64,000 bases of DNA from Archangium gephyra. GTDB lineage: Bacteria > Myxococcota > Myxococcia > Myxococcales > Myxococcaceae. The notes beneath the pieces were generated by a model, which did no database searches, had not been told where the DNA came from, and saw only the letters and a program-made list of their open reading frames with translations. The translations under genes and the position numbers were made by a program. The stretch is from contig NZ_CP011509.1 in NCBI RefSeq assembly GCF_001027285.1, forward strand, positions 3,232,501 through 3,296,500, read 5' to 3'. This document shows positions 1 through 6,455 of this stretch, piece by piece. Each line of letters begins with the position of its first letter. The stretch's first letter is position 1.

Positions 1-335
1 ACGATCATGAGAGGGCCAACCTAGTCGTACGGGGTGTCTTCTGCACCCGGCGCCTGACGCAGCGGAGCCACGCGGTCTGACTTCGCTCCGGGTGAGATGA
101 CGCGCCATTCCAGAATTGCGGACTCCCGGTGGGATACCGGGGACACCCGGAGAGTCGTGTGTCACCCAGTTGCTTATAAGTCGGGGTTGTCTGCATATGA
201 GTGTGCTCATTGCCTGACTGGCGGAGTCAGGACCTGGGGCTTCATGCCCTGGGTTGAGCACGGGGGGGGCTGTGTGTGGATGACGCAAGCCTTGCCTCGC
301 ATCCGTCGTCGCCGAGGCATGAACGAGAGGGATGC
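1..335. other. Leader region upstream of the RCC1 lipoprotein, no gene seen
   Basis: I see no convincing gene here. A perfect 7-bp hairpin (CCTGACT, loop GGCGG, AGTCAGG) lies at 213-231 and a run of G at about 261-268. The hairpin has no following T run, so it is not a clear intrinsic terminator; it may be a 5' leader structure of the gene that starts at 336, or the end of an upstream transcript. Confidence 0.4.
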
Positions 336-3300
336 ATGATGGGGAGCACCTTGTCGAGGAGCCTGCCGGTGACGCTCCTCCTGGCCATGGCCGCGCTGGT
401 GGTGGGATGTGGGGAGAGGGAGGGGGAAGACGAAGGGACGCGGGTTCCTCGACGGGCGCCCCTCATCATCGTGCAGGGCATGCCCTACCGCCTGGCGGCG
501 GGGTTGGGCCACTCGCTGTATGTGCTGCCGACGGGCACGGTGTGGAGCTGGGGCAACAACGCCCAGGGGCAGCTGGGGGATGGCACCACCAGCCAGCGGT
601 TGAACCCGGGGCAGGTGGTGGGACTCACGGGCATGACGGCCGTGGCGGCCGGCAACAACCACTCGTTGGCCCTGAGTGACCTGGGCCGGGTGTGGGCCTG
701 GGGAGGCAACGGGGAAGGGCAGCTGGGGGATGGCACCACCGCGCAGCGCACGAGCCCCGTGCAGGTGCCGGACCTCCTGGATGTCTCGGCCATCGCCGCT
801 GGCAACCTGCACTCGCTGGCGCTGAGGACGGATGGCACCGTGTGGGCGTGGGGCAACAATGCCTCCGGCCAGCTTGGGGATGGCACCACCACCAGCCGCA
901 ACGTCCCCACCCAGGTACCGGGGTTGACGCAGGTGTCCGCCATCGCGGCCGGGGACTCCCATTCCCTGGCCCTGCGCGCGGACGGCACGGTGTGGGCGTG
1001 GGGCAACAACGCCTCCGGCCAGCTCGGGGACGGCACCACCACCTCGCGCTCCCTGCCGGTGCAGGTGCTCGGCCTCACGGGCATCGTGTCCATCGCCGGT
1101 GGCGGCGCCCATTCCGTGGCGGCCGACTCCGCGCGCGACGTGTGGGCCTGGGGGGACAACTCCCGCGGCCAGCTCGGAGATGAGGGGACGGCGCCGTCCT
1201 CCGCGCCGGTGCAGGTGCACGGCCTGGCGGGCATCGTGGCCGTCGCCAGTGGGACGCACCACTCCGTGGCCCAGCACATCGACGGCTCCGTGCTGGTCTG
1301 GGGTGACAACAGCCAGGGCCAGGCGGGGCAGAACCTCGCCAGCCCGCTGCGCCTCCCGCAGCTGGTGCAAGGCGTGACGGCGCAGGCCATTGCCTGTGGC
1401 AACTCCTACGTGCTGGCCGGGCGCAGTGATGCCTCCGTCCAGGCGTGGGGCGCCAACTCCTTCGGCCAGCTGGGCAATGGCAGCGCCGGCTGGCGCCCCC
1501 TTCCGGAGCCGGTGCAGGGCCTCTCCGGCATCTCGGCCGTGTCCGCGGGGGACGTGCACGCGCTCGCGCTGCGGCCGGATGGAACGGTGTGGGCCTGGGG
1601 CGACAACGGTCAGGGTCAGCTGGGGGATGGCACCTTCTCCCAGCGCCCGCTCCCGGTGCAGCTGCAGGGGCTCTCGGGTGTGACGTCCGTCGCCGTGTCC
1701 AGCTACCACTCGCTGGCGCTGAAGTCGGATGGGACGGCGTGGGCCTGGGGTGACAACTCGTTCGGCCAGCTGGGAGACGGCTCGGGCGGCAAGCGTGCCA
1801 CGCCGGGAGCGGTGCCGGGGGTGTCGGACGCCACGGCCCTCGCCGCGGGCGGCTACCACTCGCTGGCGCTGAAGTCGGATGGGACGGTGTGGTCCTGGGG
1901 CGACAACACCTACGGCCAGCTCGGCGAGGGCACCACCTCCTTCACCCCGCGCCCCACGGCCCTGCAGGTGGCGTCGCTCGCGGGCATCACCCACGTGTCC
2001 GCCGGCCTCTACCACTCGCTGGCGCTGAAGTCGGATGGGACGGTGTGGGCCTGGGGTGACAACTCCTACGGCCAGCTCGGCGAGGGCACCACCACCGTGC
2101 GCAGTGCCCCCGTGCAGGTGCAGGGGCTCTCCCACATCGTGTCCATCGAGGCCGGGCCCTTCCACTCGGCGGCGGTGCGCGTGGACGGCTCGGTGTGGAT
2201 GTGGGGGGACAACTTCTACGGCCAGCTCGGGGATGGGACCACGAACCCCCGCACCCTGCCGGCCCCGGTCGCGGGCATCGTGGGCGCCATCTCGGCCGTC
2301 TCCTCCCGGGGCAGCCACGTGCTGGCCCAGGGCACCCAGGGCCAGCTCTGGACGTGGGGGCGCAACGCCACGGGCCAGCTCGGCGTGGGCAACAACACCT
2401 CGGTGAGCACGCCGGTGCGGGTGCCGGGCTTCTCGCGCGCCACGGCCCCGTCGGCCGGGGGCCGCATGTCCATCGTCCTGCGCGAGGGAGGCACGGTGTG
2501 GGCCTGGGGTGACAACACCTATGGCCAGCTCGGCAATGGGGCCACCAGCATGTACCCCTTCCCGGTGCGGGTGCGGGGCCTTCCACGCGCCGCGCGGCTC
2601 TCCGCGGGCTCCGGCCACTCCCTCTACGCGCGCAACGACGGCATCGTGTCGAGCTGGGGCAGCAACAGCGACGGGCAGCTCGGCGTCGAGGACGTCACCT
2701 TCAGTGAGGCGCCCTTCCTGCTGGCGGCGCCCCGCTGCGTCGAGGTGGTGTCGGCGGGCGCCTACTACTCCCTGGCGTTGCGCTGTGACGGCACGGTGTG
2801 GGCCTGGGGAGACAACACCTCGGGCCAGCTCGGGGACGGCACCACCACCTCGCGCACCACGCCGCTGCAGGTGCAGGGGCTCACCAACGTCATCGCCCTC
2901 TGGGCGGGCGCCCACCATGCCCTGGCGGTGCGCGTCGATGGCTCCGTGTGGAGCTGGGGCGACAACGGCCAGGGTCAGCTGGGGGATGGCACCACCACCT
3001 CGCGCACCACCCCGGTGCAGGTGCAGGGCCTGCTCGGCGTGAAGGCCGTGGCGGGCGGCTCCGGCCACTCGCTGGCGCTGCGCGAGGACGGCACGGTGTG
3101 GGCCTGGGGTGCCAACGCCTCGGGCCAGCTCGGGGACGGCACCTTCTACTCGAGCCGCACGCCGGTGCTGCTGCCCTCGCCGGTGCTCACGGGCGTCACG
3201 GCCATCGCCGCCGGTGGCGTGCACTCGCTGGCGCTGCGCGAGGACGGTACGGTGTGGGCCTGGGGTGACAACGCCTCGGGCCAGCTCGGGGATGGCACCA

Positions 3301-3629
3301 CCACCGCGAGCGCCACTCCCGTCCAGGTGGTGGGCCTCGAGAACGTCACGGCCCTCGCGGCCGGCCAGTCGCATTCGCTGGCCCGGCTGAGCGATGGGAC
3401 GGTGTGGGCCTGGGGGGACAACACCTTCGGGCAGCTCGGGGACGGCACCTCGACTCCCAGCTCCCTGGCGGCCGCGGTGCCGGAGCTCGCGGGCGTCACG
3501 GCCCTCGCCGCTGGCGGCGGCCACTCCCTGGCGCTGAAGTCGGACGGCACCCTCAGCACCTGGGGCGGCAACGCGTACGGCCAGCTCGGGGATGGCACCC
3601 CGGGCTTCCGGATGATGGAGCTGGAGTGA
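336..3629 (+). CDS. RCC1-repeat lipoprotein, about 21 repeats
   Basis: A predicted exported lipoprotein of 1097 residues. The start at 336 (or the adjacent ATG at 339) follows AGAGGG and gives a signal peptide ending in a lipobox (LVVGC) near residue 25; the open frame reaches back to 276 but that extension would bury the signal. The rest is a tandem array of about 50-residue RCC1 (regulator of chromosome condensation) units. I count 21 variants of the core W-x-W-G-x-N-x-x-G-Q-L-G-D-G. RCC1 repeats form seven-bladed beta-propellers, so this chain could build about three propellers in a row. Such proteins are frequent in myxobacteria, with unknown ligands. The repeats are also very similar as DNA, so unit number may vary. 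Surface binding or scaffolding is inference; no enzyme motif is visible. Confidence 0.9.
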   Translation: MMGSTLSRSLPVTLLLAMAALVVGCGEREGEDEGTRVPRRAPLIIVQGMPYRLAAGLGHSLYVLPTGTVWSWGNNAQGQLGDGTTSQRLNPGQVVGLTGMTAVAAGNNHSLALSDLGRVWAWGGNGEGQLGDGTTAQRTSPVQVPDLLDVSAIAAGNLHSLALRTDGTVWAWGNNASGQLGDGTTTSRNVPTQVPGLTQVSAIAAGDSHSLALRADGTVWAWGNNASGQLGDGTTTSRSLPVQVLGLTGIVSIAGGGAHSVAADSARDVWAWGDNSRGQLGDEGTAPSSAPVQVHGLAGIVAVASGTHHSVAQHIDGSVLVWGDNSQGQAGQNLASPLRLPQLVQGVTAQAIACGNSYVLAGRSDASVQAWGANSFGQLGNGSAGWRPLPEPVQGLSGISAVSAGDVHALALRPDGTVWAWGDNGQGQLGDGTFSQRPLPVQLQGLSGVTSVAVSSYHSLALKSDGTAWAWGDNSFGQLGDGSGGKRATPGAVPGVSDATALAAGGYHSLALKSDGTVWSWGDNTYGQLGEGTTSFTPRPTALQVASLAGITHVSAGLYHSLALKSDGTVWAWGDNSYGQLGEGTTTVRSAPVQVQGLSHIVSIEAGPFHSAAVRVDGSVWMWGDNFYGQLGDGTTNPRTLPAPVAGIVGAISAVSSRGSHVLAQGTQGQLWTWGRNATGQLGVGNNTSVSTPVRVPGFSRATAPSAGGRMSIVLREGGTVWAWGDNTYGQLGNGATSMYPFPVRVRGLPRAARLSAGSGHSLYARNDGIVSSWGSNSDGQLGVEDVTFSEAPFLLAAPRCVEVVSAGAYYSLALRCDGTVWAWGDNTSGQLGDGTTTSRTTPLQVQGLTNVIALWAGAHHALAVRVDGSVWSWGDNGQGQLGDGTTTSRTTPVQVQGLLGVKAVAGGSGHSLALREDGTVWAWGANASGQLGDGTFYSSRTPVLLPSPVLTGVTAIAAGGVHSLALREDGTVWAWGDNASGQLGDGTTTASATPVQVVGLENVTALAAGQSHSLARLSDGTVWAWGDNTFGQLGDGTSTPSSLAAAVPELAGVTALAAGGGHSLALKSDGTLSTWGGNAYGQLGDGTPGFRMMELE

Positions 3630-3931: not shown

Positions 3932-4480
3932 ATGGCCATCGAGACCTGGCGCATCGACACCCAGCACTCCTCCATCGGCTTCACCGTGCGGCACATGGTG
4001 GTGGCGCGGGTGCACGGCCGCTTCACCCGCTACGAGGGGAGGCTGTTCACGAACGGCGACCTGCTGAAGGCGCAGGCGGAGGTGAAGATCGAGGCGGCGA
4101 GCCTCGACACCCAGGTGGAGGCGAGGGACCAGCACCTGCGCTCGCCGGACTTCTTCGACGTGGGGGCCTTCCCGCGCGTCATCTTCCACAGCAAGCGGGT
4201 GCAGGCGGCGGGCAAGGACCGCTACGTGGTGGTGGGGGACCTGACCATCAAGGACACCACGCGCGAGGTGGCGATGGAGACGGAGTTCCTCGGCCGGGTG
4301 ACGGACCCGTACGGCACGGAGCGCCTGGCGTTCAGCGCGCGCACGAGCGTGGACCGCAAGGACTTCGGGCTGACGTGGAACAAGGCGCTGGAGACGGGCG
4401 GGGTGCTGGTGGGCGAGCGCATCGACATCGAGCTGGACGTGCAGGTGGTGAAGGCGGCGGTGGTGGAGAAGGCGGCGTGA
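3932..4480 (+). CDS. YceI family protein
   Basis: A 182-residue protein of the YceI/lipocalin-like family, which binds polyisoprenoid chains in a beta-barrel. The family signature is present from the start: W-R-I-D-T-x-H-S-S-I-G-F-x-V-x-H near residues 5-20, the F-x-R-Y-E-G segment, and the C-terminal D-R-x-D-F-G-L-T-W motif. There is no signal peptide, so unlike E. coli YceI it is probably cytoplasmic. The ATG follows GGAG-like sequence (cggagacgacttcc). It is followed on the same strand by a pirin-like gene and msrA. The three may answer to oxidative or electrophile stress, which is inference from neighbourhood only. Confidence 0.88.
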   Translation: MAIETWRIDTQHSSIGFTVRHMVVARVHGRFTRYEGRLFTNGDLLKAQAEVKIEAASLDTQVEARDQHLRSPDFFDVGAFPRVIFHSKRVQAAGKDRYVVVGDLTIKDTTREVAMETEFLGRVTDPYGTERLAFSARTSVDRKDFGLTWNKALETGGVLVGERIDIELDVQVVKAAVVEKAA

Positions 4481-4635
4481 GGCGGCGGGCGGCTGGCCGG
4501 GGCCCGGGCCGGCGTGAAGTGGTGGGTGGGCTGCTGGCCGGCGTGACGGGCCTGATGGGCGGCATGGAGCTCGCCCGAGGTGAATCGCCACCGGCGGCCC
4601 GAGCATCCAAACGGATTGGAGACAAGGAGTACCCC

Positions 4636-5331
4636 ATGATGAGCGTTCGACCCTCTGAAGCACGCGGCCATGCGAACCACGGCTGGCTGGATTCCCATCA
4701 CACCTTCTCGTTCGCGGACTACTACGACCCGAGCTTCATGGGCTTCCGCGCGCTGCGTGTCATCAACGAGGACCGGGTGGCGGCGCGCAGTGGCTTCGGC
4801 ACGCACCCGCACCGGGACATGGAGATCATCACGTACGTGCTCTCGGGGCAGATCGAGCACCGGGACAGCATGGGGACGCTGGGGTTGCTGCGCGCGGGAG
4901 AGCTGCAGCGGATGACGGCGGGCACGGGCGTGCTGCACAGCGAGATGAACCGGAGCAACGAGGAGCTGCACTTCCTGCAGATCTGGATCCTCCCCGAGCG
5001 CCAGGGCCTGACGCCGAGCTACGAGCAGAAGGCCTTCACGAAGGAGGAGCGCCAGGGCCGCTTCCGGCTGGTGGTGTCGCCGGAGGGGAAGGAGGGGGCG
5101 CTGAAGGTGCACCAGGACCTGAGGCTGTACAGCACGCTGCTGGGCAAGGGCGAGAAGACGGAGTACGCGCTGGCACCGGGCCGGCACGCGTGGCTGCAGG
5201 TGGCGCGCGGGGCGGGCTCGCTCAACGGCGTGGAGCTGAAGGCCGGGGACGGGGTAGCCGTGACCGATGAGGCGCGGTTGGTGCTCTCGGCGACGGAGCC
5301 GCTGGAAGCCCTGCTCTTCGACCTGGCGTGA
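4636..5331 (+). CDS. Pirin family protein (YhhW-like bicupin)
   Basis: A 231-residue pirin-like bicupin. The frame is open from 3850, but the start at 4636 (second ATG at 4639) has AAGGAG six bases upstream and begins at the family N-terminus. The N-terminal cupin carries the metal-binding pattern H-P-H-R-D-M-E near residue 57 and a later H-S-E-M-N segment; H-R-D and G-T-G-V-x-H-S-E motifs match YhhW-type proteins, some of which have quercetin 2,3-dioxygenase activity in vitro. The physiological substrate is unknown. It starts 155 bases after the yceI-like gene and ends 60 bases before msrA, all in the same direction, so co-transcription is possible. Confidence 0.88.
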   Translation: MMSVRPSEARGHANHGWLDSHHTFSFADYYDPSFMGFRALRVINEDRVAARSGFGTHPHRDMEIITYVLSGQIEHRDSMGTLGLLRAGELQRMTAGTGVLHSEMNRSNEELHFLQIWILPERQGLTPSYEQKAFTKEERQGRFRLVVSPEGKEGALKVHQDLRLYSTLLGKGEKTEYALAPGRHAWLQVARGAGSLNGVELKAGDGVAVTDEARLVLSATEPLEALLFDLA

Positions 5332-5391
5332 GCGGGGAAGAGAAGTAACCTGGGGGTGGGTTCATTCGTAGAGGCAGGTGGAGGACATGCC

Positions 5392-6084
5392 ATGAAGCCA
5401 GCCGACCGCGTCGAAGCTCCCACCCCCCGGTTGTTCCCCGTGGACGCGCTGGCGCCCACGCGGGTGGAGACGGCCACCTTCTCGTTGGGTTGATTCTGGG
5501 GTCCTGACGCCCAGTTCGGGCGTCTGCCTGGAGTGATTCGGACCCGTGTGGGCTACACCGGCGGCGGCCAGCCGGACCCGACGTACCATCAGCTCGGGGA
5601 CCACACGGAGTCCTTCCAGCTCGACTACGATCCGGCGCGCATCTCCTACGAGACGCTGCTGGGCTGGTTCTGGAAGGACGCGGACCCGACGGAGCGTCCC
5701 CGCAACCGCCAATACATGGCGGCGGTGTTCTACGCGGACGAGTCGCAGAAGCGGCTGGCGCTCGCCACGGCGAAGCAGGCCATGGCGGGGAGGAGCGGGC
5801 CCATCGGCCTGCCCATCCTGCCGTTGGGCCCGTTCTACCGGGCCGAGGACTACCACCAGAAGTATTACCTGCGCCGCTACACGGACCTGATGCGCGAGTT
5901 CAGCGGCTACGGCGAGCGCGAGTTCGAGGACTCCACCGTGGCGATGTGGCTCAACGCCTGCGTGGGCGGCTACTTGAAGCGGGAAGAGTTGGAGGCCGAA
6001 GTCGAGCGCCTCGGATTGCCGGAGGCCGAGCGCCAGCGGGTGCTGAGGCTCGGCCATGCGGCCCTGGCGCACCGCCGCCGGTGA
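5392..6084 (+). CDS. msrA: Peptide-methionine (S)-S-oxide reductase MsrA, probable selenoprotein with Sec34 encoded by TGA
   Basis: MsrA reduces methionine-S-sulfoxide using a nucleophilic Cys in the motif G-C-F-W. From ATG 5392, preceded by GGAGG at 5380-5384, the frame reads A-T-F-S-L-G-stop-F-W-G-P-D-A, with TGA at 5491-5493 exactly where the catalytic Cys codon belongs (codon 34). The frame then continues without interruption for 196 more codons with the expected family sequence (R-V-G-Y-T-G-G, Y-D-P-x-x-I-S-Y-E, P-F-Y-x-A-E-D-Y-H-Q-K-Y). Conservation on both sides of the TGA and a perfect hairpin at 5506-5524 argue for selenocysteine rather than a nonsense mutation. An automatic caller would start at GTG 5533 and lose the active site. 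Sec-containing MsrA is known in some bacteria and algae. No classical resolving Cys pair is obvious; a single Cys lies near the C-terminus. No Sec machinery lies in the window. The alternative is a decayed gene or a sequencing error. Confidence 0.8.
5491..5524 (+). promoter_or_regulatory. In-frame TGA plus SECIS-like hairpin in msrA
   Basis: The TGA (5491-5493) is followed after 12 bases by GACGCCC-AGTTC-GGGCGTC (5506-5524), a perfect 7-bp stem with a 5-base loop whose second base is G. The loop begins 19 bases after the TGA. As I recall, bacterial SECIS elements are coding-region hairpins with the apical loop roughly 16-37 bases after UGA and a G among the first two loop bases; this fits. 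A further GGG/CCT pairing (5499-5501 with 5527-5529) may extend the stem below an internal loop. Recognition by SelB is inferred. Confidence 0.65.
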
Positions 6085-6131
6085 GTGTCAACGTAGTTGT
6101 CGCGAGAAACTGACTCAAGCAGTGGGCCTGA

Positions 6132-6455
6132 AAGAAGGCACTGCAGGAGGGCGGGGAGGGGTTGAGGCGGACGGGCCCAGAGGGAGTCCAGTCACGGGTG
6201 CTGAACCCCGGTCCGGAGCCCTGGACGCTGGCGGGGGCGGCGCTGGTGGACTCGACGGGGGAAGAGGTGGAGCTTACCCGGTGGCAAAAGGCACCTATCC
6301 CCGCGAATGGTGCCGGTGCCGTCGTGGTGGGCATCAAGGGGGAGCGCGCGCAGCTCGGCTGCCCCTGCACCCTCAAGCTGTGGGAGGCAACCGGGCCGCG
6401 CACCGTCACCCTTGGGAACGTCACGTTCCCCGAGAGCAAAGCGAAGGGGCCCTGA
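6132..6455 (+). pseudogene. DUF2381 family C-terminal fragment
   Basis: The reading frame opens after a stop at 6129-6131 and encodes about 107 residues resembling the C-terminal part of myxobacterial DUF2381 proteins (N-P-G-P-E-P-W-T-L-A-G-A-A-L, then an E-x-A-P-I-P-A-N-G-like segment and C-P-C-T-L-K-L-W-E). Full-length members, as I remember them, are two to three times longer and start with a signal peptide. Here the N-terminal part is missing and only a TTG at 6162 could act as start. It sits beside the SitA-like toxin pair, in a neighbourhood with several other broken genes. I call it a remnant; the family assignment is from memory of family sequences. Confidence 0.55.

Follow-up and report, generated by a model that had tools for sequence, protein, structure and literature searches.

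A probable selenoprotein methionine-S-sulfoxide reductase encoded by a TGA-containing msrA gene of Archangium gephyra

Introduction

Within the 64,000-nucleotide stretch of the Archangium gephyra genome analyzed here (the window), a reading frame for methionine sulfoxide reductase A (MsrA) carries a single TGA at the codon of its catalytic cysteine, which raises the question of how the cell reads this codon. We propose, with a high degree of confidence drawn from comparative sequence data, that the gene produces a selenoprotein methionine-S-sulfoxide reductase through insertion of selenocysteine (Sec) directed by SelB and an mRNA hairpin, and that it lies behind its own conserved promoter-like element. 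The locus is a new selenoprotein MsrA of an enzyme kind that has been listed since 2006, and nothing outside known biology is needed as a mechanism.

MsrA is counted among the bacterial selenoproteins by Zhang in 2006, for Syntrophobacter fumaroxidans (PMC1794560), in the GOS study of 2008 (PMC2398784), in a 2022 review and in a 2026 review that gives the motif as GUFWG/H. The Sec-MsrAs of S. fumaroxidans and of marine metagenomes are likened to the Archangium protein through this common listing as a selenoprotein family, not through sequence. The main text of the 2025 deep-Sep article contains no word starting with 'myxo' or 'msra' and uses 'methionine sulfoxide' once. A literature search on selenoproteins or selenocysteine in myxobacteria, Archangium and Myxococcota returned nothing relevant by title and opening of the abstract; most subscription papers fall outside its scope, so that an unpublished status is not implied.

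The msrA reading frame

The msrA coding sequence (5392-6084) is of the CoMsrA type, named after the enzyme of Clostridium oremlandii, and gives a 230-residue product in which codon 34 (TGA, 5491-5493) would encode Sec, as judged from the frame, the homologue alignment, Pfam and a structural model; all msrA features described here lie on the forward strand. The translation reads MKPADRVEAPTPRLFPVDALAPTRVETATFSLG-U-FWGPDAQFG... and ends at a second TGA (6082-6084), the internal one occupying the catalytic Cys position of GCFWG to give the motif G-U-F-W-G. The product scores 128.2 bits with the PMSR family (PF01625), whose cut-off is 23.7; a VPGUxxT thioredoxin-like NCBIfam model was set aside, as its 33.7 bits compare with a cut-off of 275. 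The initial annotation had described one frame broken only at codon 34 and a ribosome-binding site ahead of the ATG at 5392, and had expected automatic annotation to start at 5533. The translation is otherwise continuous, GGAGGA (5380-5385) precedes the ATG and is conserved in relatives, and the longest table-11 open reading frame of this frame after the TGA begins with GTG 5533. A table-11 gene call would thus miss the MsrA active site, which makes the locus a likely annotation trap.

The existence of this shorter frame is also what the main competing explanation builds on, namely that the TGA is a true stop and the locus either a young pseudogene or the source of a shortened MsrA translated from GTG 5533, and the loss of msrA from related genomes (see below) would be in keeping with it. 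A product starting at 5533, however, would have no catalytic residue, and the comparison with homologues bears directly on the question.

Conservation of the TGA codon among homologues

Homologues were collected as the best 80 of 161 genome_contigs relatives, to which the gene itself and whole-genome matches from genomes G002, G018 and G012 were added (n = 84). Codon 34 is TGA in 76 of the best 80 of the 161 relatives and in 80 of all 84 homologues; the remaining four carry a Cys codon (TGC in L052; TGT in L062, L099 and L103), and no stop other than TGA occurs at this position. All 26 further listed loci are ordinary MsrAs, with 37-45% identity and Cys codons. The initial annotation had credited Sec-MsrA to a few bacteria, which proved too modest: the 80 Sec loci span at least eight phyla, with the phylum left unresolved for 11 of them (four being whole-genome loci), and Sec-MsrA is widespread. 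The lineages holding most of the loci found here are, we presume, anaerobic.

In the nearest relatives the frame is intact apart from the TGA, at 76-79% identity, and the close relatives show no random stops or frameshifts of the kind that the initial annotation had held to speak against Sec. This intact frame, the recurrence of TGA and of no other stop at codon 34 in 80 of 84 homologues from at least eight phyla, and the covariation of the hairpin described below leave termination at codon 34 very improbable. A sequencing or assembly error that turned a Cys codon into TGA is more improbable still: the A. gephyra genome was represented here by one assembly, but the same TGA recurs in independent assemblies of other species, and the bases of the hairpin are constrained.

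Within a sample of the phylum, 8 of 195 genomes have a match at E <= 1e-35, and TGA is found in seven of these eight. SelA accompanies all seven TGA carriers; this association was rejected as support because SelA is so common in the sample (150 of 195 genomes) that the chance probability is about 0.16. In a tree built by a quick method with SH-aLRT support only, the A. gephyra gene groups with those of G002, Hyalangium and G018 (support 99), Hyalangium versicolor being classed under Archangiaceae. This group is joined next by L019, L095, L098 and L100 (94) and then by three cyanobacterial Cys forms (88). Other Myxococcota sequences (L063, L073, L078, L097 and L109) lie elsewhere in the tree, so the Sec-MsrA family has no single line of descent within the phylum.

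Selenocysteine machinery of Archangium gephyra

The initial annotation had named the Sec machinery as a check on its proposal, and the genome, a single contig of 12,489,432 bases, holds all of it: a tRNA-Sec with anticodon TCA (UCA) scoring 73.2 bits (gathering threshold 47), SelA (576 bits), SelB (327.3 bits) and SelD (378.4 bits), the last with one in-frame TGA of its own (NCAG-U-AAKI). Besides msrA, four genes have one TGA in an otherwise open frame, a partial list since the search covered the AhpC-TSA and molybdopterin families: SelD, the peroxiredoxin L151 (C1:11016280-11016645) and the peroxiredoxin-like L152 (C1:11041153-11041518), a pair with TGA in TPG-U-T and TGG-U-T, and the formate dehydrogenase-like L154 (C1:273736-275409), with TGA in ARI-U-HSS. 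We take these TGAs to stand at catalytic positions, and L151, L152 and L154 are probable selenoproteins on this sequence evidence. The molybdopterin oxidoreductase L153 (C1:12480183-12481504) was rejected as a selenoprotein; it looks frameshifted, because the match to its profile runs on in a different frame and two TGAs lie in frame.

The same genome encodes two ordinary MsrAs (G000:C1:7713975 and C1:6796235), which share the MsrA catalytic domain with the Sec form but differ from it by TGC at the catalytic codon and by an identity of 37-39%. A probable Sec-containing repair enzyme, found here mostly in presumably anaerobic lineages, stands in a large-genome myxobacterium beside two Cys enzymes of the same kind.

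The predicted SECIS hairpin

The apical hairpin of a bacterial SECIS element (5506-5524) is predicted from fold and covariation; it consists of seven base pairs formed by GACGCCC (5506-5512) and GGGCGTC (5518-5524) around the loop AGTTC. The hairpin starts 12 bases after the TGA and its loop 19 bases after it, with G as the second loop base, exactly the geometry given in the initial annotation. As we understand the SECIS rules, the loop should lie 16-37 nt from the UGA with a G within its first two bases. The fold of a 61-nt segment is only mildly better than those of shuffled sequences (z -1.85; 9 of 200 shuffles as good).

The covariation analysis used 73 of the 80 Sec loci, of which 72 are distinct, and left out L017, L019, L054, L081, L086, L090 and L110. 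In this set, 84.1% of cells form the seven-pair hairpin versus 75.7% in shuffles, cells changed on both sides number 49 versus 22.2 +/- 3.6 (0 of 500 shuffles as high), and the covariation score is 0.231 versus 0.099. Two of the five measures are not above the shuffles, namely pairs with double changes (2 vs 2.0) and further pair types (7 vs 6.5). The control that counts most is the sliding of the register, since kinship alone can lift sequences above shuffles without any structure; the signal is present only in the stated register, and every slid register is far lower. Outer pairs often fail, pair 16-34 being unpaired in 24 and pair 17-33 in 34 of the 72 distinct rows, and the three inner C-G pairs are invariant across the 73 loci. 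With these invariant pairs goes a constraint on codon choice: Gly43 is GGG in 80 of 80 Sec loci, GGG makes up 256 of the 1283 Gly codons at other sites of the same genes, and codon 40 is GCC or TCC in all 80. No probability is attached to this constraint because the rows are related. This alignment shows conservation of a hairpin immediately 3' of the UGA, accompanied by compensatory changes.

Of the four Cys loci, three encode Gly43 by GGA and do not form this hairpin. The fourth, L052 from Syntrophobacterales Delta_01 (TGC at 676-678), keeps GGG and the inner five stem pairs, which is what a recent change from Sec to Cys would leave, and L052 looks as if it had undergone one; its lowest-energy fold is a different structure. 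Some leakage at UGA is general in bacteria, and UGA 34 might be read by near-cognate suppression (for example, with Trp). Nothing specific to this gene was found in favor of such suppression, and the complete Sec machinery, the conserved hairpin and the presence of Cys, the usual alternative to Sec, in all four non-TGA homologues make this explanation negligible in our estimation.

Together, the machinery, the TGA in close relatives and the compensated hairpin support the central claim of the initial annotation, that this organism encodes a Sec-MsrA, and the TGA at the catalytic site is almost certainly read as selenocysteine by the cell. In the mechanism that we propose, SelB held by the hairpin 12 bases downstream would deliver Sec-tRNA(Sec) at UGA 34; the Sec34 selenolate would then attack methionine-S-sulfoxide, methionine would leave, and the resulting selenenic acid would be reduced by an external reductant, which is glutaredoxin in the Clostridium enzyme that has been studied. 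An external reductant is proposed because no resolving Cys is conserved in the family: across the 84 rows, the catalytic column is the only conserved Cys column, and five rows, that of A. gephyra included, have a Cys at position 190 (see below).

Structural model, active site and Cys190

An AlphaFold2 model of the A. gephyra MsrA, built from 31 aligned sequences, reached a pLDDT of 93.8. Compared with full-length CoMsrA chains (PDB 4lwj, 4lwm and 4u66), it gave Z scores of 24.5-26.5 over 200-203 residues, the best match having Z 26.5, 203 residues, an rmsd of 2.4 and 42% identity; MsrAs of other organisms did not exceed Z 17.3, with alignments of 116-156 residues. The alignment with CoMsrA extends over residues 24-226 and includes the C-terminal helical domain, which covers about residues 163-230 (5878-6081) when its boundary is placed at CoMsrA residue 145 plus 18. 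The two proteins share Sec at the Cys position of GCFWG, the catalytic residues and this helical domain. They differ in an N-terminal extension of about 18 residues in the Archangium protein and in their hosts, which are an anaerobic Gram-positive bacterium for CoMsrA and a myxobacterium, an aerobe, here. The active-site residues reported for CoMsrA are Tyr47, Glu55, Gln89, Tyr90, His137 and Tyr140 (PMC4333827); they correspond to Y65, E73, Q107, Y108, H155 and Y158, which are invariant in 84 of 84 sequences.

CoMsrA is described as having no Cys at all, unlike the Archangium protein, in which translation and alignment place a sole Cys besides Sec34 at residue 190 (TGC, 5959-5961), within the helical domain. 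Column 190 holds Cys in 5 of 84 rows (A. gephyra, G002, Hyalangium, L111 and L112) and Tyr in 57; Cys190 also occurs in genomes G116 and G118, and the gene of G018, which branches next, has Tyr. In the tree, the Chloroflexi MAG loci L111 and L112 are remote from the myxobacterial clade, and their Cys190 is apparently a separate gain. In CoMsrA, the helical domain is reported to make no direct interactions with active-site residues (PMC4333827), an observation that argues against Cys190 acting as a resolving residue. Glutaredoxin serves as the reductant of CoMsrA, which passes through an intermolecular Cys16-Cys16 dimer in its catalytic cycle (PMC4479559).

Upstream element, gene neighborhood and loss of msrA

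A promoter-like element, GTAACC-N16-CGTA (5345-5370), which we take to be an ECF-sigma-like promoter, precedes the gene and is conserved ahead of the start in the nearest relatives (G004, G002, Hyalangium, G018, G116 and G118). The exact string occurs once in the window, and two matches are found against 0.62 expected when one mismatch is allowed; this count alone is not significant, so the weight of the element comes from the nearest relatives. Across the wider family (83 of the 84 loci have enough upstream DNA), 4 of 83 upstream regions contain the element with CGTA or CGTT, all within the clade of A. gephyra, G002, G018 and Hyalangium; genome G054 (44% identity) has the CGTT variant. Scans of 5300-6300 for sigma-70 promoters and terminators gave no matches. 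The DNA of G002, Hyalangium and G018 aligns with that of A. gephyra from near the promoter to the stop codon and no further, which we read as relocation of the gene together with its promoter-like element; G002 has separate 151-base and 35-base matches outside the aligned msrA block. The aligned protein of G118 is identical to that of the Hyalangium locus, and both may come from one species. A YceI-domain gene and a pirin gene (3932-5331) immediately precede msrA and share its strand.

Four of the five congeneric genomes searched (G001, G003, G004 and G005) lack msrA, which is thus dispensable. All five retain selA and a selD with one TGA, so the loss concerns msrA and not the use of selenocysteine. 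G004 shares the upstream neighborhood with A. gephyra at 88-90% DNA identity and lacks the stretch corresponding to 5471-6055 through a seamless in-frame deletion of 585 bp, whose ends can be placed only to within a few bases because of microhomology; the deletion lies at L126 (G004:C422, about position 3000, in one assembly of 430 contigs) and leaves an open frame of 35 codons. After the pirin gene, G001 has GCCGGGAAGAGGCGTAGCC, in our reading a remaining stub of the promoter region of msrA, before unrelated sequence begins. G003 and G005 keep pirin without msrA, and G002 has both genes, 38.6 kb apart. Short matches in G001 and G003 were rejected as msrA remnants, as they align only over residues 71-123 and carry the inserts of ordinary MsrAs. 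Presence and loss of msrA within one genus that keeps selA and selD allow the contribution of Sec to be judged in a natural experiment, with the G004 deletion as a natural msrA knockout, and further interest lies in a promoter-like element that stays with the gene in changing surroundings.

A more far-reaching scenario, which we consider unlikely, is that Sec-MsrA in the Archangium-Hyalangium branch is mobile as a promoter-plus-gene cassette under an ECF-type stress sigma factor, that Cys190 has been recruited as the resolving partner of Sec34 in a 1-Sec/1-Cys enzyme, and that sister species with clean deletions serve as natural knockouts. Such an enzyme may have become independent of the intermolecular step known from CoMsrA.

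Elsewhere in the window (276-3629), a long forward-strand gene of WGDN..GQLGDG repeats, presumably RCC1-like, is accompanied by a long open reading frame on the opposite strand.
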